A DNA stretch of 64,000 nt from Bifidobacterium asteroides (GTDB taxonomy: Bacteria; Actinomycetota; Actinomycetes; Actinomycetales; Bifidobacteriaceae), in the NCBI RefSeq assembly GCF_030758775.1, contig NZ_CP132384.1, positions 558,001-622,000 of the forward strand, in the 5' to 3' direction. This document shows, one piece after another, positions 16,808 to 25,838 of this stretch. The position numbers were made by a program, and so were the translations under genes. The notes beneath the pieces were generated by a model, which was not told the DNA's origin, ran no database searches, and worked only from the letters and a program-made list of their open reading frames with translations. Within the stretch, counting starts at the first letter, position 1, and the number at the start of each line of letters is the position of its first letter.

Positions 16808-18163
16808 ATGAGGTTCGAAAAGATGACGAAGGTCATAGCCCTGACAGGTGCTGTAGCCATGGCGTTCGGACTCGCCGGCTGCGGTGGATCCGGCAGCGGT
16901 TCTTCTGCGTCGGGCAAAGACGGGAAGACCGAAATCTTGGTCTGGTCCTGGGATTCGACCCTTCCTAGGACAGTCAAGGGTTTCGAAGCCAAGAACCCCG
17001 ACATTAAGGTGAAGGTCACTAATGTCGGCACCAACAAAAAAGAGTACACGGCCTTGAACAATGCCCTGTCCGCCAACAAGGGCGCCCCTGACCTTGCACA
17101 GATCGAGTATTATGCTCTGCCCGAATATGCTACTCAGGACAAGCTGCAGGATCTGTCTGACATGGGCGCTTCCGGATACAAGAGCTTCTACACGCCGGGC
17201 ACTTGGGATTCAGTGAATTTGAATGGGGGCGTCTACGCGCTGCCTATGGATTCCGGACCCATGGCCCTGTTCTACAACAAGGAAGTGTTCGACAAGGCCG
17301 GAGTGACCGAAGTGCCCACGACCTGGGATGAGTATTACGAGGCAGCCAAGAAGATCAAGGCCGTCGGTTCCTACATCACTTCGGACTCTGGCGATGCAGG
17401 GTTCTTCGATTCCATGACCTGGCAGGCCGGCGCCAAGCCCTTTGCCACCAGCAAGGACGGCAAGACCGTCACCATCAATCTGACGGGTGACCCCAAGGTC
17501 AAGCAGTGGGACGACTACTGGCAGAAGATGATCAACGAGGACTTGATCAACACGAAGATTCCTGGATGGTCGGACGACTGGAACAAGGGCCTCAACGACG
17601 GATCAATCGCCTCCTTGCTCACTGGCGCCTGGATGCCCTACAACCTGCTGTCCGGTGCCCCTGATGCCTCCGGCAAGTGGCGTGTGGCGCAGATGCCGAC
17701 CTGGGAAAAGGGCGGGACTGAGAATTCCGAGAACGGCGGGTCTTCCCTGGCTATGATCAAGACCAAGGACGATTCCAAGAGCAAGGCCGCGTACAAGTTC
17801 CTGGAGTACGCTTGCCACAACGCGCAGGGCATCAAGACCCGTGTCGATGGCGGCGCCTTCCCGGCTGACAACAACACGCTGAAGTCCAACGAGTTCCTGT
17901 CAATGACCAGCTTGAAGGACGCCAACGGCAAGGATAACGCCTACTTCGGCGGCCAGAAGTTCAACGAGGTCCTGTCGCAGGCCGCCAAGAACGTTCTGCC
18001 TGGCTACAAGTTCCTGCCCTTTGAGGTCTACGCACGTGGAATCTACGGTGACAAGATGACCGCTTTCACTTCTAAGTCGGCCACATTGGATCAAGGGATC
18101 GCGGCTTGGCAGAAGGATCTGCAGAACTACGCCAAGCAGCAGGGCTACACGGTGAAAAAGTAG
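16808..18163 (+). CDS. ABC sugar-binding lipoprotein (extracellular)
   Basis: The product is 451 aa from ATG 16808, with AGGAGATAGGGACA immediately upstream. The signal peptide ends in the lipobox LAGC with Cys25 as the lipidated residue, followed by a Gly/Ser linker (GGSGSGSSASG). The mature part is a family 1 extracellular binding protein (EILVWSWDSTL, LPMDSGPMALFYNKEVFDKA, TTWDEYYEAAKKI, WMPYNLL). It captures the sugar and delivers it to the two permeases. The order permease-permease-binding protein is the reverse of the usual arrangement and there are about 100 bases before it, so it may have its own promoter. Codon use is normal, unlike the permeases. Confidence 0.93.
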   Translation: MRFEKMTKVIALTGAVAMAFGLAGCGGSGSGSSASGKDGKTEILVWSWDSTLPRTVKGFEAKNPDIKVKVTNVGTNKKEYTALNNALSANKGAPDLAQIEYYALPEYATQDKLQDLSDMGASGYKSFYTPGTWDSVNLNGGVYALPMDSGPMALFYNKEVFDKAGVTEVPTTWDEYYEAAKKIKAVGSYITSDSGDAGFFDSMTWQAGAKPFATSKDGKTVTINLTGDPKVKQWDDYWQKMINEDLINTKIPGWSDDWNKGLNDGSIASLLTGAWMPYNLLSGAPDASGKWRVAQMPTWEKGGTENSENGGSSLAMIKTKDDSKSKAAYKFLEYACHNAQGIKTRVDGGAFPADNNTLKSNEFLSMTSLKDANGKDNAYFGGQKFNEVLSQAAKNVLPGYKFLPFEVYARGIYGDKMTAFTSKSATLDQGIAAWQKDLQNYAKQQGYTVKK

Positions 18164-18212
18164 GTAGCTCTCATCAATTTAGCGCTGTAGCGCAGATTCT
18201 TTAATAAGGTAT

Positions 18213-18249
18213 ACTGGCCAGGGAACAAGATGGATTTTCTCTGGCCGGT
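18213..18249 (+). terminator. Candidate terminator hairpin after the ABC operon
   Basis: ACTGGCCAG (18213-18221) pairs with CTGGCCGGT (18241-18249) with one G-U pair around a 19-base loop, 50 bases after the stop codon. A smaller hairpin (GCGC TGTA GCGC) lies at 18182-18193 before a short T-rich stretch. Confidence 0.4.
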
Positions 18250-19472
18250 TCTTGCATGCCCACTGCCGTATCAGGACTGCGCTATTCCTCAGATTTTGGA
18301 CCGCTGAAGCCTTTTGCAGCCTCCGACCAATAACAGGATGTACTGAAAATGGGCTTGCTGTTTCCAGTGAGATACTGCTTTTAAGGATCTGACTTGTAGC
18401 AGTAGCAACATTTCAATGGATGATTGTAATTTGATTTGCTTTGATAAACTGCTTTGAACTATTGGCAAGGACATCAGTTGGCTGGTTTGAGAATGTAAGA
18501 AGATATCAGTTTGAAGTTGACTCGCTTTCGACTCCGATGTCAACTCTGTCGATTGTATCGTTGATCCTCATGGATCGGGCTGATGTGTGGGTAAGATGGA
18601 GCTCTTTGGTGATGCCTGCCGAACATAGAATAGATGCTAGTGCTTTTGACTTCGCGACCTATACCTTCCTTATTGCGCGAACGACGTTTTTCTATCTGCA
18701 GCGGGTGGGAAAATTTTCCCATGAATCCGGCTATAGATTAGAGTGATGATCCTTTGGTAGCTATCTAATTATTCATATCGATAGGGGGAATTTGACTCCG
18801 AATCTGCCTAAAAGCCCATTCGCAGACAAGGAAGATTAGTTTACACCGGCCAGCTGTTATGCATGCCATTTCTATGGCACTTACTGGGATTTGGCGCTCA
18901 TACACAGTATAAAGTTGAGTGTAAAAAATAGTGCGCTTTTTAAAATCCAATCAAATACCTAATTATAAGCATAACATTCAATATAATTAACTTTAATCGA
19001 TTATAGTACAGCAGTTGGTTTGTTCTTTTGGGAAAACCATTCATTCTTCCCAAAAGAAATAACGAATATGTTCATCTCTGCTGCTTCGCCCTGAGCTGCT
19101 GTAAAATGTTAGAATTTTGTCGCTTTTGGTAGCTGAAACTTTTCAATTTGTTTAACGTTTCGTGGGTTAAATTACTTAACTCTTAATGTCAATCTAGTAT
19201 ACACGATATACGTGAATTCATTCCAGATGCTTGTGCTGCCGCACTCATCTAATTTAAACTGAGAAAGGTAATCTCTTAACTTGCTGATCAGCTGTATCGG
19301 ATTTTCTGAAGAAAGCACGTAATACTATTCATATGATCTTTGACTTACCTGTTGGAAACGTCCGCTATGGCGTTGTTGGCGACTAATTGTGTCAATTGCA
19401 TTAGTTGTTTCGGTTATGGTGTTATATAGCAGATGTGCTGGGACTTGGCTTCAGGACCAGGAGGACTTATTA
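18250..19472. other. AT-rich intergenic region at left end of the island
   Basis: About 1.2 kb without a supportable gene. The frames of 60-100 codons on both strands (for example 18441-18746 plus, 18289-18543 minus) overlap each other and have no motif or ribosome site. Composition drops sharply from the GC-rich ABC operon. A perfect 12-base inverted repeat is annotated at 19023-19058. The ribosome site of the next gene, AGGAGG, is at 19459-19464. Confidence 0.5.
19023..19058. repeat. Perfect 12-base inverted repeat
   Basis: TTCTTTTGGGAA (19023-19034) and TTCCCAAAAGAA (19047-19058) are exact complements around a 12-base loop in the AT-rich region upstream of the AlbA_2-like gene. It could be an operator for an island gene or an RNA hairpin; the right arm is not followed by a T-run. 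Confidence 0.65.
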
Positions 19473-20795
19473 ATGCTTGCCAGTGACACTGGGTTGGATT
19501 GCTTCAAACTCCCAAATGGCGAAGATAGTTGGTCAAAGTTTGTGTGTGACGTTTCTCATGAAGGTGATATCGCTGAGCGCGACTATTTAGAGTTGAAAGG
19601 CTCTATGTTCGATATCACCTCTAAAAGAGATAAGCAGAAAATTGCCAAATTTATTCTTGGCTCAGCCAATCGTAATCCAGAAATAGCAAAACGGCATTTT
19701 CAAGGTTCTGCTTTGATGGTACTAGGTGTGGATTTCAACTCAATTTTGGGTGTTAAACGAATTGAAAAGGTTGAGCTCGATCGTGTCATCAACCCGTTTC
19801 TGGGTGCGTCAGGACCGCGGTGGGATATTCAGCGAGTGCCAATAAAGGGCAATCAGGATAAAGAGGTTCTTATAATTATTGTGGATCCTCCTTACGATGG
19901 ACAGCCCCCTTTTCCTTGCCGAGCGGACGGTGAAGGCTTAAAGAACGGGGCACTTTATATAAGGGCTGATGGTGAGACCAGGGAGGTGAAAGCAGATGAA
20001 CTTGATATGTTGATAAATAGAGCTCGACGGCGTTTAAAACGGGTGAAGTTACGCATAAGCGTAAAGGGCTCAGCTAATCAAGTAACTATAGATAGATCTC
20101 GAACCCTTGATGAGTATATAGAAAATACCACGAAAACACTGCTCGAAGCGGCAAAACTTCCTGATCGCTTCTCGTCAATCTCACCAGTTCTAAATAACTC
20201 TATTTTCTATGAAAACCGCACTAGAGATGAATATTCTAGGGAGATAAAGCAGTGGCAAGATGATTGTGTTGATAAGTGGGATGATGCTTGTCGGCGTATA
20301 GGTGCAGCGTACTGCGACCCAATTGATTTCATCGTTGATAACACAACGAAGGTTCACTTGAAAGCTGTAAAAATAAAAATTCATTCAGATTATTGTTTGA
20401 GTTTGATTGATCAGTTCGACAGTGATGAGGTAGACCTAGGATTACCTGAACCACCATCACTTTGGAGAAGTGGAATACAGCCTTTATGTTCTACTTTTGA
20501 TCCTACAGTTTTCATTAATCATAAGTCTAAGATCAACGTGGTCAAAGTGAATAGCGGCATTGATATTATAATCGATGTTGGTGATTTGAGGCCGTTGGAT
20601 AGTATAAATACTAAAATGCTAGATGAAGAGCCGCAAGTTTTGTTAGTTCCCGCAGAAATTAAAAGAGAGTCTATTAACTGTAATTGGACAGCGACGGCCG
20701 ACGGAGTCGATGATGTATTCACAGGTAAATTAACAATCCCAGTAGGCCCTGTTAAAGACCTTACGAAGGTTACACAAATATTATTAAGGGTATAG
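19473..20795 (+). CDS. AlbA_2 / Schlafen-like putative nucleic-acid-binding protein
   Basis: About 440 aa. ATG 19473 follows AGGAGG by eight bases, preferred over a GTG 84 bases upstream. The first 190 residues look like an AlbA_2 domain: ERDYLELKGSMFDITSKRD gives the L-E-x-K core, FILGSANRNP stands where A-x-A-N-T is usual, then ALMVLGVD, EVLIIIVDPPYDGQPPFPC and GALYIRADGETREVKADEL. The glycine pair usual after the SAN motif is missing. A basic segment (INRARRRLKRVKLR), a helical stretch and an unfamiliar beta-rich C-terminal domain follow. AlbA_2 and Schlafen domains bind or cut nucleic acid in regulators and defence proteins. It sits 549 bases upstream of an OLD-type nuclease gene in the same AT-rich DNA, hinting at a shared defence role. 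Confidence 0.65.
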   Translation: MLASDTGLDCFKLPNGEDSWSKFVCDVSHEGDIAERDYLELKGSMFDITSKRDKQKIAKFILGSANRNPEIAKRHFQGSALMVLGVDFNSILGVKRIEKVELDRVINPFLGASGPRWDIQRVPIKGNQDKEVLIIIVDPPYDGQPPFPCRADGEGLKNGALYIRADGETREVKADELDMLINRARRRLKRVKLRISVKGSANQVTIDRSRTLDEYIENTTKTLLEAAKLPDRFSSISPVLNNSIFYENRTRDEYSREIKQWQDDCVDKWDDACRRIGAAYCDPIDFIVDNTTKVHLKAVKIKIHSDYCLSLIDQFDSDEVDLGLPEPPSLWRSGIQPLCSTFDPTVFINHKSKINVVKVNSGIDIIIDVGDLRPLDSINTKMLDEEPQVLLVPAEIKRESINCNWTATADGVDDVFTGKLTIPVGPVKDLTKVTQILLRV

Positions 20796-21344
20796 AAATT
20801 ATCTGGGACCGTTTATTTGCTATTTATTTGATGACCGTTAAATATTTTGATAAAATGTGTTAGAAATTCGCCCTGAGATAGGGGTGTGAGGTAGTACGCA
20901 TTTTTTGTAGCATACCTTCCACTGCTTGATTGAGAGCTGACATGCTTATCTTGTTAACTTATTTGGAATATTATTGCATTTGACTTAACGTGACATCATG
21001 AGCATTCATTCAACTACTAGAGTGCCGCAAAATTAAAGATCACAAAAATATTGCTGCTGAGAAACAATGGGGTCATTTAAATAAAACGTCCAAATTGTAC
21101 TTACGTTTTTCTAAACATCGACTAACGATCCCTTTTAGACCTCAGTAGTATATTTCCTGTGCGATTCTTACTGTTTGGATTGATGATTTACTGATAGCGG
21201 ATCATGTGTTTAGCGGAAATCGAGAAATGGGTTGGGCACACAATTCGACAGTTACTTGAAGTAATGCATTTACGAAGCCTCGGAAGATTCGACGGTGCAA
21301 GTGATGGTTAACTGCTAAGGAAGTTTATGCAGTAAAGTAGAATC
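20796..21344. other. AT-rich gap between the two island genes
   Basis: About 550 bases with no open frame of interest. A short imperfect dyad (ACTGC...GCAGT, about 21311-21333) lies just before the OLD-type gene, whose ribosome site is weak. The gap is long for an operon, so the second gene probably has its own promoter, although a structured RNA here cannot be excluded. Confidence 0.45.
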
Positions 21345-23267
21345 ATGAAATTGACAAAGGTGCAATTACACAAATACAAGAGCATTGACGATAGCACAGC
21401 ATTCGACGTTCAAACAGATGTTACATGTCTAGTTGGGAAAAATGAATCCGGCAAGACGGCTGCCCTAGAGGCCATGTACAAGAGCCGTCCAATCAGTAAC
21501 AATGTAAAATTTGATATGGTCATGGACTATCCGACTCATTTGACCAGAGAAAGAAAGGAATCTGGCAGATCTCAAATAGTGTCGGATTTCGCTTATGAAC
21601 TAGATGAAGAAGATATAGCAGCTGTAGAAAAAGAGTTAGGGCCGAATACTGTCATTAGTAAGACGATGACATGTTCCACACGGTACGATCAATCTGTTGT
21701 CTTTGGCTTAAAAATTGATACCTTGGCTGTCAAAAATAATCTATTAAAAGAGCTTGATCTTTCCGATACTGTGAAATCAGCCGTCCAGGGCGTGAAAACC
21801 CCACAAGAATTAGTGAGTGTGCTTGAAGAGAAAGTAGAAGGAGACGTACCTAGTGTCCAGAACGTGATTCACCGGGTTAAAAACTGGAGGGATTTAGATG
21901 CCACTAATCGGGCTTTTGACATACTTAATGAAAGGAGACCAAAGTTTGTCTATTACGAAGATTATGACATTATGCCCGGCCTTATATCGATTCCCTATCT
22001 CATTAAACAAAAGGAAGATGGAAATCTTACTCGAGGCCAAAAGGCTCTAATCGCTTTAATCCGGATGGCTGGAATTGATCTGGAAGAATTAGAAAAAGCA
22101 GAAACAGCTAATTATGAAAATATTATTCGCGAGCTTGAGAATGCATCGAATGTTCTCTCTGATGAAGTTTTCGAGTATTGGAGTCAGAATCAAGAACTCA
22201 GTGTAGTTTTGAAATTGTTGCCAGGTGTTAATCGCCCAGAGCGATTAAATGAGCAAGGGCCTCTATTGCAAATTCGTATTAGCAATCAGAGACATAAAGT
22301 CACCGTGCCTTTGAGTGAACGGTCCAGAGGTTTTATCTGGTTTTTCTCTTTTCTAGCTTATTTTTCAGACATCGAGGATAATGCACAGCAGCCGCTGATC
22401 CTTCTGTTGGACGAACCCGGCCTCAGCTTGCATGCCACTGCTCAACAAGACTTGCTTAGGTTTATACGAGAACGTTTGGCACCAACCCATCAGGTTATTT
22501 ACACGACGCATTCCCCGTTCATGGTAGATGCTCACAAGTTCAATCAGGTTAGAACAGTCATTGACGCAGACAATACTGGCACAGTCGTATCATCAGACGT
22601 TTTAAAAGCAGATAAGGAATCGGTATTCCCCTTGCATGCTGCAATGGGCGTACAACTGACACAAACGCTTTTTATTGGACCTTACGTTCTTTTCGTCGAA
22701 GGTCCCTCAGATTTAATCTATCTAAATTATCTGTCGGATGCAGTTAGCAGAAGTGGAGGCCAAGGACTTGATACAAAGTGGACTATTACTCCAGGTGGTG
22801 GATTGGCTAAGATTCCATTTATGTTAAATTTGTACGGCGCCAACGATATTACTATTGCAGTGCTTACGGATTCGTCTAAACAGGATAAATCTGTATTGAA
22901 CGCATTAAGACAGGATGGTAGGATCTTCAATAGTAGCTTGGTGTCAGTAGGCGATATTCTTGACAAAACTGAGGCTGACATTGAGGATATCTTTACCCCT
23001 GAATACTATTTAAACTTAGTTAGCAGAGCTTATGCCGGAATGCTCAACAATAGAAAAATAAAAGTACAAGAACTCCCGAGAGGTAATAGAATAGTTAAAC
23101 GTGTGGAACTTTATTTCCAAAAGAATAATATAAATAAAGGTAGGCTTAACCACTACTCGCCTGCGGCGGTTTTATTGCGTGCCAGTGATGAACTTCCACA
23201 ACCTGATCGAGAAACTTTGCAAAATGCGGAAGAACTATTTAAGAGAATAAACTCAATATTACAATGA
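21345..23267 (+). CDS. OLD-family ATPase with TOPRIM-like nuclease domain
   Basis: The product is 640 aa. The N-terminal ABC-type ATPase has Walker A GKNESGKT (31-38), a central helical insertion (about 95-270), a region around LSERSRGFIWFF that resembles the ABC signature, Walker B LILLLDEPGLSLHA (Asp356/Glu357) and the H-loop TTHSP (His389). A TOPRIM domain follows: FVEGPSD with Glu452, then VLTDSSKQDK (Asp509), then the acidic DIEDIF characteristic of OLD nucleases. The usual D-x-D of TOPRIM is replaced by D-S-S, so catalysis may be altered. OLD nucleases include P2 Old and GajA of Gabija and often act in phage defence. No UvrD-type GajB partner is adjacent. AT-rich codon use marks it as acquired. 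Confidence 0.85.
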   Translation: MKLTKVQLHKYKSIDDSTAFDVQTDVTCLVGKNESGKTAALEAMYKSRPISNNVKFDMVMDYPTHLTRERKESGRSQIVSDFAYELDEEDIAAVEKELGPNTVISKTMTCSTRYDQSVVFGLKIDTLAVKNNLLKELDLSDTVKSAVQGVKTPQELVSVLEEKVEGDVPSVQNVIHRVKNWRDLDATNRAFDILNERRPKFVYYEDYDIMPGLISIPYLIKQKEDGNLTRGQKALIALIRMAGIDLEELEKAETANYENIIRELENASNVLSDEVFEYWSQNQELSVVLKLLPGVNRPERLNEQGPLLQIRISNQRHKVTVPLSERSRGFIWFFSFLAYFSDIEDNAQQPLILLLDEPGLSLHATAQQDLLRFIRERLAPTHQVIYTTHSPFMVDAHKFNQVRTVIDADNTGTVVSSDVLKADKESVFPLHAAMGVQLTQTLFIGPYVLFVEGPSDLIYLNYLSDAVSRSGGQGLDTKWTITPGGGLAKIPFMLNLYGANDITIAVLTDSSKQDKSVLNALRQDGRIFNSSLVSVGDILDKTEADIEDIFTPEYYLNLVSRAYAGMLNNRKIKVQELPRGNRIVKRVELYFQKNNINKGRLNHYSPAAVLLRASDELPQPDRETLQNAEELFKRINSILQ

Positions 23268-24572
23268 AAATAGTTGTGCTTCGTGTATGGTGATATATGA
23301 ATATAAACATGTAGGATTAAACTAGCATATAAGATTCAAAGAACTGTCAGTCTATCTCAATGGATTTGTTTAGTGGATTGGATATGTCTTCCAAAAAGAA
23401 AATTGGTTGAAAAAATAATACAGAAGGATAATGCATAAATTAGTAGCTGATGACTGTGAGCGATACCATGTCGTGGTCTTAGTTTTTTTTTTATCATTGA
23501 TTTCATAGAACTCTTTATATCCGTTCGTATTTATAACTAGGCTTAGCGAAGTTTCTCTTTGGCAAAAATCGAGAAGGTGAGAAGTGAGAAGAGTTTTCGG
23601 CTGACTGTGAGGCATGATCCAGCCTTTGGAGTCTGGGTTATATTCAAGCATCGGTAGTGATGTTCAGTCGGTTTTATCTTGCTAGCTGTGGCTTCAATAG
23701 TTAGCTTGGCAGCAAAAAAAGTATTCGTCTTCTGGAAGTCATGAGCTCAATTGCGGTTAATTGTGTGCTCTTTTCGGAACTTTTCCCATTCTCGATTGAG
23801 TCTGCAAATAACTTGCAGGATTGGTCTTTTTATAAATCCTCTCTGTTCCGCTGGAATAGCTCTGAACTACCGTTAAGCCTGCATCATTTAAGGTGGAAAG
23901 CAAGGATGACTGTCGCGAATCATGAATATTCCGCCGTCTTTCAGCAAGAGGGCTATCGACCGAGGTTCATCCTTCATATCGGGTAGCAAAGTGACCATAC
24001 CATTGCTGTTAACGTTCACATCGAACCAACCTATCTGTTCAGACACGGTGTTCGCTACAAGGCGGACATCACTTTGCGTATAGGTGATGGGTGTGCCAGC
24101 CGTTTGAGATAAATTCCTGGCATATGCAGAGCTGTGGAAGAAAAAATCTAGGTCATACACTTCTCGTGTTCCCAGGTGCCACCATGTCAGAGAGTCAACG
24201 CCTATATGGCATTGCTAATGCAATAGATACAATCATCCTCTGATGCCACTTCAGGGAGGTGAGGCTTTAAAATCGCTAGATTGCATTAGTCAATCGGTCA
24301 TAGAGCCTATGGCTTACCGGTAAAAGAGTTCAAATCTCTATCAGCACCGTTGGCATGCACAACTGCCCTGTCATTCCAGTTAAGGAGATTATTCTGAACA
24401 TCCTAATCCTGGTGCATTTTATGAGGGATGGCGCTGCTTTCGGATAGATGCCTATCGAGGTGATCGAACCAGGAAATGTTACGAGTACTTTTTCAAGTGC
24501 AGATGTATCGGTCATATACAAATATGCAACCCTGCTATATCCTGAATACCCACTTCGTTGGTAAATACAGGG
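23268..24572. other. AT-rich right end of the island
   Basis: About 1.3 kb with one possible small gene on the minus strand (23888-24160, listed separately). The remaining frames are short, overlapping and without motifs. No transposase or integrase and no obvious terminator was seen. It ends at the 3' end of a tRNA-Arg gene, a common integration point, but I could not find a second copy of the tRNA end to the left. Confidence 0.45.
23888..24160 (-). CDS. Small unidentified protein or gene fragment
   Basis: A GTG at 24160 gives 90 aa; the frame is open for about 14 more codons upstream (CHIGVDSLTWWHLGTREV). The reading AGTPITYTQSDVRLVANTV then EQIGWFDVNVNSNGMVTLLP then ALLLKDGGIFMIRDSH is well balanced and protein-like. 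There is no ribosome site, so it may be the tail of a truncated gene. A plus-strand frame overlaps but looks random. Function unknown. Confidence 0.35.
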   Translation of the reverse strand: MYDLDFFFHSSAYARNLSQTAGTPITYTQSDVRLVANTVSEQIGWFDVNVNSNGMVTLLPDMKDEPRSIALLLKDGGIFMIRDSHPCFPP

Positions 24573-24645
24573 TGCCCCGGATGCGATTCGAACGCACGAC
24601 ACCTTCTTTAGGAGAGAAGTGCTCTATCCCCTGAGCTACCGGGGC
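24573..24645 (-). tRNA. tRNA-Arg (anticodon CCT)
   Basis: On the minus strand the acceptor arms GCCCCGG and CCGGGGC pair. The anticodon arm is CTTCT - CTCCTAA - AGAAG with CCT at the anticodon, and the T arm contains GTTCGAATC. The discriminator is A and no CCA is encoded. Its 3' end faces the AT-rich island, consistent with a possible integration site. Confidence 0.93.
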
Positions 24646-24812
24646 AACGGAAACTACTGTACCACGAAGTGCGACTCGGGCAGGTCGCTGATGGGCAGGC
24701 TAGGACCGTGTGCCTCCTGGAGAAAGTTAGCCTCCTATCCCGGTACGCCATATGGTCATGGTTTACAATTGCTCAACGGTCAAGCTGACTGTGTATCCCT
24801 TGGGAGGAGACC

Positions 24813-25838
24813 ATGGCGAAATTCAGACAGTCCTTCCTGGTGAAGCATGTCTTTGGGTGGACGGCCAGACTGCTGGCGTTGGCCAGCTTGCTGGCCCTAG
24901 CGGCGCGTGCCTGCCCGGCATGGCTGTCAGCGATACCCTACCTGCCTGATCTGGCCGCTTTGACGCCCTGGTTCATCTTCATGAGTCTACTGGCCCTGGT
25001 CCTGGCTCTGATGGCTTCACGATGGTTCACGGCTTTGGTGCTTATCGCCGCCTTGGCCCTGAATGTCTACTGGCAGTACCCCTTCTACCAGGAAGGATCC
25101 CAGATCGGCGGGCAATTTGATCAGTCCATGGCCCTTGAGCATCCCGACCGGTACGACGATGTGGCGCGGGTCATGACGCTGAACGTCTACAAGGGTCAGG
25201 CCGATGCCGATCAGATAGTCAAGACCGTCAGCGACAACCGGGTCGAGGTGCTGGCTCTGCAGGAGGTCAGCGAGGATTTTGTGGACCGTCTGCACAAGGC
25301 CGGCATCGACCGCTATCTGCCCCACGAGCAGCTTTCCACATCTTCGAAGGAATACGCCAACGGTCTTTGGACAGCCGCGCCAATGCAGTCACCCTCAAAG
25401 GACGACGTAGGTTCCCGCTCTTCCATGATGCCGGCGGCCAGCATCGACTTCGGCAGGGGCAGGACCAGTGTCAGATTCGTCTCGGTCCATACCACCTCGC
25501 CGCAACCGGGCAGTTGGAATGCCTGGCGACGCAGCGTGTCCGACCTGGGAAAACTGCGGAAGCACGAACACACGCGATACGTGCTTTTGGGGGACTTCAA
25601 CGCCACCTGCGATCATGCAGTTTTCCGAGACATGCTGGGGGAGCGGTTCAGTGATGGAGCACGTCAGGCCGGGCATGGCATGAGCATGACCTGGCCAGCC
25701 AACCGAGCTCCATTGCCCAGGTTGGTGGCCATCGATCATGTGGTGGTGGATCGGGACATCAGGGCCAATCGGCTGCAGGTCGTACCTATCGCGGGTTCGG
25801 ATCATGCGGCCCTGCTGGCCACGGTGATGGTGGAGTAG
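24813..25838 (+). CDS. Membrane-anchored endonuclease/exonuclease/phosphatase-fold protein
   Basis: The product is 341 aa; GGGAGGAG precedes ATG 24813. Three membrane segments (TARLLALASLLALAARA, FIFMSLLALVLALMA, ALVLIAALALNVYW) are followed by an EEP domain: MTLNVYKG, LALQEVSEDF (metal-binding Glu), VSVHTTSPQP, LLGDFNATCDH (Asp and Asn) and GSDHAALLATV (terminal Asp-His). The motifs for a metal-dependent phosphoesterase are complete. The catalytic domain is probably outside the membrane. Substrate unknown; actinobacterial relatives are usually annotated only as EEP family proteins. Confidence 0.85.
   Translation: MAKFRQSFLVKHVFGWTARLLALASLLALAARACPAWLSAIPYLPDLAALTPWFIFMSLLALVLALMASRWFTALVLIAALALNVYWQYPFYQEGSQIGGQFDQSMALEHPDRYDDVARVMTLNVYKGQADADQIVKTVSDNRVEVLALQEVSEDFVDRLHKAGIDRYLPHEQLSTSSKEYANGLWTAAPMQSPSKDDVGSRSSMMPAASIDFGRGRTSVRFVSVHTTSPQPGSWNAWRRSVSDLGKLRKHEHTRYVLLGDFNATCDHAVFRDMLGERFSDGARQAGHGMSMTWPANRAPLPRLVAIDHVVVDRDIRANRLQVVPIAGSDHAALLATVMVE

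Follow-up and report, generated by a model that had tools for sequence, protein, structure and literature searches.

A probable accessory-gene turnover point beside tRNA-Arg(CCT) of Bifidobacterium asteroides, carrying an OLD-like gene and a distant AlbA_2-type gene as candidate one-gene defences

Class 1 OLD proteins, such as P2 Old, Thermus scotoductus OLD (Ts OLD) and Escherichia coli YbjD, are the product of a single gene and combine an N-terminal ABC/AAA_15 ATPase with a C-terminal TOPRIM domain. In Ts OLD, metal A is assigned to E377, D431 and D433 and metal B to D381, S478 and E480, and conservation of these residues across Class 1 is reported (PMC7049728). Cleavage of a host tRNA is ascribed to P2 Old, whereas YbjD is described as exerting its anti-phage effect even without its TOPRIM domain (PMC13261556). 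The Class 2 protein GajA of Gabija has the same ATPase-TOPRIM architecture and is paired with the UvrD-like helicase GajB, and the AAA_15 ATPase AriA of PARIS is accompanied by a separate TOPRIM subunit, AriB. Prokaryotic Schlafen systems are described as defending by cleavage of tRNAs of host and virus (as cited in PMC12839542). Here we describe a segment of the Bifidobacterium asteroides chromosome that carries a relative of each type. It lies left of tRNA-Arg(CCT) in a stretch of 64,000 nucleotides of contig NZ_CP132384.1 (the window), and its two genes are named A, encoding a candidate AlbA_2/Schlafen-type protein, and B, encoding an OLD-like protein.

The interval left of tRNA-Arg(CCT) is probably a turnover point for accessory genes, and the insert that it holds in the window would carry two independent one-gene defences, each probably an abortive-infection nuclease. 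An earlier note on this DNA had pointed out AT-rich sequence beside the tRNA, with two large intact genes, and both observations stand: the G+C (GC) content of 18164-24569 is 31-45% by segment, against 58.4% window-wide, and A and B are open reading frames (ORFs) of 440 and 640 amino acids (aa). Both lie on the plus strand with a GC of 41% each and a GC at third codon positions (GC3) of 36-37%, as compared to 74-77% in two adjacent chromosomal genes. The features of the interval are as follows.

18606..18881, plus strand: N-terminal remnant of an AraC-family regulator, found by tblastn with the protein of sister genome G019; vertical DNA at the left edge of the insert.
18882..23548, plus strand: inserted segment of ~4.67 kb with genes A and B, bounded by the ends of the sister alignments.
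19473..20795, plus strand: gene A, an ORF of 440 aa; putative distant AlbA_2/Schlafen-type N-terminal domain and beta-rich C-terminal domain, candidate RNase effector.
20796..21344: gap of 549 bp between A and B, 37% GC, with no ORF of at least 60 aa.
21345..23267, plus strand: gene B, an ORF of 640 aa; OLD-like AAA_15 ATPase with a C-terminal TOPRIM.
23549..24429, minus strand: stop-ridden pseudogene of an S-adenosylmethionine-dependent methyltransferase, found by tblastn; vertical DNA separating the insert from the tRNA.
24570..24646, minus strand: tRNA-Arg(CCT), found by ARAGORN and Rfam.

The borders of the insert come from a comparison of the window with the same site extracted from 17 genomes of the genus (the sisters). 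Several of them align with the window at 18607-18880 and then again from ~23549; the break at 18881 and the restart at 23549 indicate that 18882-23548, with a GC of 31-41% by segment, is inserted DNA that replaced the remainder of araC. The kilobase next to the tRNA (~23.55-24.57 kb) aligns continuously through the tRNA and beyond in G019, G007, G012 and G009, and G003, G008, G010 and G022 carry it too, the tRNA excepted; none of these eight sisters has A or a full-length B. Both flanks are decayed genes. The AraC remnant covers codons 11-103 of 294 with in-frame stops (60% identity, E 6e-28, with the G019 protein as tblastn query), and the methyltransferase pseudogene matches its G019 counterpart with an E-value of 8e-54 in tblastn. 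The two G019 proteins exhibit AraC domains and a Methyltransf_25/11 match, respectively, and the pseudogene flanks have a GC of 44% vs 53% for the matching parts in G019. According to tblastn, araC is full-length in 8 of the 17 sister loci and the methyltransferase likewise in 8; the seven loci with both have them ~290 bp apart with nothing in between. The AT-rich patch is composite, and the single island ending at the tRNA that the earlier note had seen is not what the alignments show, because its tRNA-proximal kilobase is common to sisters that lack A and B and its flanks are pseudogenes.

The same interval holds other cargo in sister genomes, of which twelve have an identity of 90% or more in the gene that lies to the right of the tRNA. 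G019, G007 and G012 have araC and the methyltransferase only (araC of G007 being seen by tblastn only). G008 and G022 possess an extra Fic-like gene before the tRNA, labelled from reading its translation, and this gene is also found in G010, G003 and, by tblastn, G020. An AbiH gene (Pfam 2e-21; L105:10489-11748) is present in G010, and G003 encodes an HNH_5-like protein, just under the Pfam cut-off and without a PADLOC match, beside an AbiH remnant; in both genomes the AbiH and HNH cargo sits within the stretch from the methyltransferase to the tRNA and does not coincide with the A+B junctions. The G003 remnant (L102:11848-12183) is 62% identical to the G010 AbiH, a sign of cargo decay and replacement. 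In the close sister G004, a YobI-ATPase of 1328 aa (L100:8754-12740; PADLOC Tmn, 2e-35) follows araC fragments, and the methyltransferase is absent. G025 is a looser case: its AbiU/AIPR-like gene (L111:7875-9649; PADLOC AbiU, 5e-75), apparently split into two reading frames, is separated by other genes from the tRNA ~4.5 kb to its right, and the left flank of the G025 locus does not align with that of the window. Two large ORFs of 1527 and 1238 aa, read as secreted enzymes, occupy the place of araC in G009 (L108:1870-10189) and G020 (L106:1901-10220), and G011 has other genes in the interval. The defence-like cargo of the sisters is AT-rich (GC of 40% for YobI, 42% for AbiH, 42% for HNH and 40% for AbiU); the Fic and enzyme genes, at 55-58% GC, are not. 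No description of a defence hotspot in Bifidobacterium was found among the literature matches listed.

Gene B encodes an OLD-like ATPase-TOPRIM protein, in line with the earlier note. It matches Pfam AAA_15 (1e-25), with OLD-like_TOPRIM just under the cut-off, and the AriA (top), Old and GajA models of PADLOC. Ts OLD (PDB ID 6p74; 525 aa vs 640 for B) is its best match among solved structures by profile (1.7e-8, with a profile of four B proteins) and by fold, GajA coming next in the search with the predicted structure of B (mean predicted local distance difference test score, pLDDT, of 83). The template modelling scores (TM-scores) of the fold search are low, about 0.3-0.4, so that the likeness to Ts OLD is a family-level match. 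In an alignment of 27 rows including the window, of which L017/L068 and L018/L069 are duplicate loci, the ABC ATPase residues G36, K37, D356, E357 and H389 of the Walker A, Walker B and His motifs are kept in 27/27. Of the TOPRIM residues, E452 is kept in 22 of the 27 rows, D456 in 27, D509 in 26, D545 in 24 and E547 in 26. The B protein of the window has E452, D456, D509 and D545-x-E547, with a Ser at position 511, which aligns with D433 of Ts OLD and is never an Asp in these rows of the B subfamily. As judged from this alignment, gene B differs from Class 1 OLD in one defining residue.

The B protein has neither the UvrD partner nor the separate TOPRIM subunit of the related systems, a point on which the earlier note was right. 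Its TOPRIM domain is in the same polypeptide as its ATPase. An identity as Gabija was rejected since no helicase ORF adjoins B in the window, and an identity as PARIS since there is no separate AriB, the insert having no ORF longer than 100 aa besides A and B. Among 72,556 plasmid records, 88 have relatives of B; among 50,697 phage records, two do, one by a partial match. Across 13 plasmid regions read, no recurrent partner of B was found, be it a helicase, a reverse transcriptase, a separate TOPRIM or another gene. A helicase gene adjoins B in one of the 13 regions; it is of the DEAD/DEAH type and convergent to B. Some plasmid copies lie close behind other genes of the same strand. On an Acidovorax plasmid (L124:1-5971), a DUF1156-DUF499-hypothetical gene cluster stands immediately before a B relative, and DUF499-ATPases are described as the core of BREX-related systems, with TOPRIM/OLD proteins among the backup effectors (PMC12839542), so that this placement fits a defence role. 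Of the other plasmid copies, one lies ~1 kb from hsdR and one ~1.5 kb from a TIR-domain gene, and a split copy, annotated as two genes, has a caspase-family gene nearby.

The assignment of gene A is less direct. The earlier note had called its product AlbA_2/Schlafen-like; matches to the AlbA_2 model, mostly weak, are seen in part of the family and do not extend to the window protein itself, for which Pfam, PADLOC and NCBIfam give nothing significant and which is absent from the results of a whole-genome AlbA_2 search. Among ten family members scanned, SLFN_AlbA_2 is matched at E<=0.1 by seven and above the Pfam cut-off, over the whole domain, by two. The motif E35-x4-E40-x-K42 is invariant in the 7-row A4 and the 9-row A7 alignments; in the A1 alignment, row L010, read from an internal start, is devoid of E35 and E40. 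We take this E-x4-E-x-K to be the active-site stretch of Schlafen proteins. D87, the candidate for a third acid, varies within the family. E-x-K is also present in nine AlbA_2 domains from the genus found with the Pfam model, and together with an Asn and a G...Y-x-R it forms the landmarks that the A family has in common with the AlbA_2 domain. The differences from bacterial AlbA_2/Schlafen proteins are a longer loop in place of the canonical Gly-Gly and a beta-rich domain of its own at the end of the A protein. The A profile weakly matches one solved protein, CbCash (E 0.009), and the fold search with the predicted structure of A returns weak beta-sandwich matches, which support no finer description than a beta-rich C-terminal domain. 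On these grounds, the A family is best described as distantly AlbA_2-related, with a C-terminal domain rich in beta structure. The window genome encodes another AlbA_2 protein elsewhere (L158, G000:C1:1960497-1960856), and 16 of 27 genomes of the genus have an AlbA_2 match above the cut-off.

The company of A in other genomes points to defence. Its neighbours were read in 18 other loci with flanks, some of them short (e.g., L048 and L051) and two with a partial A match (L067 and L146); L141 and L047, apparently one genome, were counted once, and G387, G706 and G752, which match over the C-terminal half only, were left out here and kept in the genome counts given below. A gene of a type listed by PADLOC is near A in nine of the 18 loci, six of the nine being scanned directly and L046, L048 and L049 by tblastn with L065 proteins. 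hsdR or its end is found in four loci, and a PDC-S53 helicase gene directly follows A in four, three of which also have hsdR. The further genes of this kind near A are those of type III and type IIG restriction enzymes, an oligonucleotide cyclase, AbiE and PDC-M19B. The order A then PDC-S53 is seen in L065:6048-13430, L049:6858-14249, L048:9807-14249 and L046:9998-14140, the L065 helicase matching PADLOC PDC-S53 with an E-value of 0 and the other three being identified by tblastn to L065. A full hsdR directly precedes A in L065 and L049, and the C-terminal end of hsdR does so in L048. To note, this arrangement has the look of a defence cluster that recurs in other Actinobacteria. The PDC-S53 protein exhibits a Pfam Schlafen group-3 helicase match (1e-8), with AAA_30 and Viral_helicase1 scoring better, and no paper on PDC-S53 was found in the literature search. 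Unlike these loci, the window has neither PDC-S53 nor type I restriction genes beside A. No PADLOC model matches the window A or three relatives, and the A family is a candidate for an unlisted defence family. It is also conceivable, although we hold it to be rather unlikely, that the A family represents an unnamed defence effector of Actinobacteria, namely a split Schlafen with its AlbA_2 part in A and its helicase part in PDC-S53, serving as a second line at type I restriction loci, that the A of the window would be a helicase-free form, and, separately, that the B subfamily makes use of an altered set of TOPRIM metal-A ligands.

Could A and B form one new immune module, with B sensing and A, the RNase, executing, or the reverse? 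The earlier note had raised a two-gene module, and several features speak for it: A and B are adjacent on the same strand, with equally low GC and GC3, and were inserted together between the same pseudogene edges, and a Streptomyces plasmid has both families as well. The gap of 549 bp, free of ORFs of at least 60 aa, argues against tight co-translation, and the two families do not move as a pair. Within the genus, two of 27 genomes have A and one has full-length B, three others having partial weak matches to B; G016, the other genome with A, is devoid of B. In a sample of the class, the A family occurs in 12 of 394 genomes at E<=1e-5, three of them matching the C-terminal half only, and the B family in nine at E<=1e-60, and the genome of the window is the only one with both. 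In a sample of the phylum, four of 396 genomes have A, and the other three are outside the 32 genomes with any B match. Of the 18 other A loci, one has B nearby, on the Streptomyces plasmid, where the two genes are ~9 kb and 12 annotated genes apart. With no repeated co-occurrence or adjacency (1/394 genomes, 1/18 loci), the two-gene module was rejected, and we give it very little probability. The other suggestion of the earlier note, two single-gene systems in one hotspot, is supported by this lack of co-occurrence and by the other cargo of the sister interval.

A mobile element that had inserted at the tRNA and since decayed, with A and B as leftover cargo, would account for AT-rich DNA adjoining a tRNA gene; an integrase gene does lie ~5 kb from A in G016, and an integrase-like ORF (labelled from reading its translation) stands beside A in L051. 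The vertical origin of the tRNA-proximal kilobase, common to sisters without A and B, largely refutes the tRNA-end case, and besides A and B the insert has no ORF of integrase length. A search of the window for another copy of the tRNA 3' end, allowing up to 3 mismatches, gave none. We therefore consider such an element highly improbable, and an integrative island bordered by the tRNA 3' end was rejected for want of an integrase and of attachment (att) repeats and because of the vertical DNA next to the tRNA. Maintenance of the chromosome or of plasmids, instead of phage defence, is a third role that A and/or B might have: the archaeal OLD-family ATPase Cran1 is reported to act in the cell cycle (PMC12796447), and B relatives are found on plasmids, in two of the 13 regions read beside transfer genes. 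The distribution of B is patchy, its full-length form being missing from 26 of the 27 genomes of the genus, and defence-like genes keep it company in the sister intervals and beside some of its plasmid copies; a maintenance role is thus quite unlikely in our estimation.

The preferred reading remains that of a turnover interval with two independent one-gene defences. The ~4.67-kb AT-rich segment would have entered between araC and the methyltransferase gene, deleting the end of araC, and both flanking genes would have decayed afterwards, which makes the AT-rich patch appear larger than the insert. For the proteins, we infer roles, triggers, substrates and cell arrest by analogy. Our best guess is that gene B acts like an OLD protein: its ABC ATPase may sense a phage-induced event and license the C-terminal TOPRIM nuclease, which would cut nucleic acid, either tRNA or DNA, and stop the infected cell. 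Given the tRNA cleavage ascribed to P2 Old and the dispensable TOPRIM of YbjD, B may have a tRNA as its target, and its mechanism may be led by the ATPase. Gene A most likely encodes an RNase of the Schlafen/AlbA_2 type; its N-terminal domain would cleave RNA, with tRNA as the probable target, upon a trigger acting through the beta-rich C-terminal domain. Each of the two probably acts alone in stopping the infected cell.

Several observations weigh against this reading. No direct repeats bracketing the insert and no recombinase able to account for its arrival were found, and A and B could have arrived jointly. Most of the sister cargo is located in the stretch from the methyltransferase to the tRNA rather than exactly at the A+B junctions, and several sisters hold non-defence genes or nothing in the interval. 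On the side of A, the Pfam assignment of the family is borderline, its profile-profile match to canonical AlbA_2 domains reaches a probability of 29% (hhalign), and the structure model is poor (pLDDT of 58). The A neighbours were hand-picked, with no control set of random genes, and four of those scanned (two in L064 and one each in L066 and L144) have no PADLOC match. On the side of B, the second metal-A Asp, mapped to position 511 by alignment only, is absent in 27/27 rows, so that a nuclease activity of B is not certain.

The remaining features of the AT-rich stretch are few. The start codon of A, an ATG at 19473, has an AGGAGG just 5' of it. Four further ORFs (18441-18746, 23741-23986, 23888-24160 and 24330-24602) exhibit no significant family, with a best E-value of 0.014. 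The ORF at 18441-18746 overlaps with the AraC remnant in the same frame, and that at 23888-24160 belongs to the methyltransferase pseudogene. At Rfam gathering thresholds, the tRNA is the sole RNA element in 17500-25500. Promoter-like and terminator-like sites are at or below chance level and were not used as evidence.

Whether isolated OLD proteins protect against phages was named an open question in a 2023 review (PMC10568477), and later reports on E. coli YbjD and Vibrio cholerae OLD begin to answer it (PMC13261556, the V. cholerae work as cited there). A and B are concrete candidates for single-gene phage protection. The new points are the unnamed family of A with its hsdR and PDC-S53 company and the altered TOPRIM site of B. 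The locus also calls for caution, since AT-rich DNA next to a tRNA is not necessarily an integrated island and decayed neighbours can imitate one. The interval itself, where sister species appear to swap defence-like genes, is a place to look for more of them.

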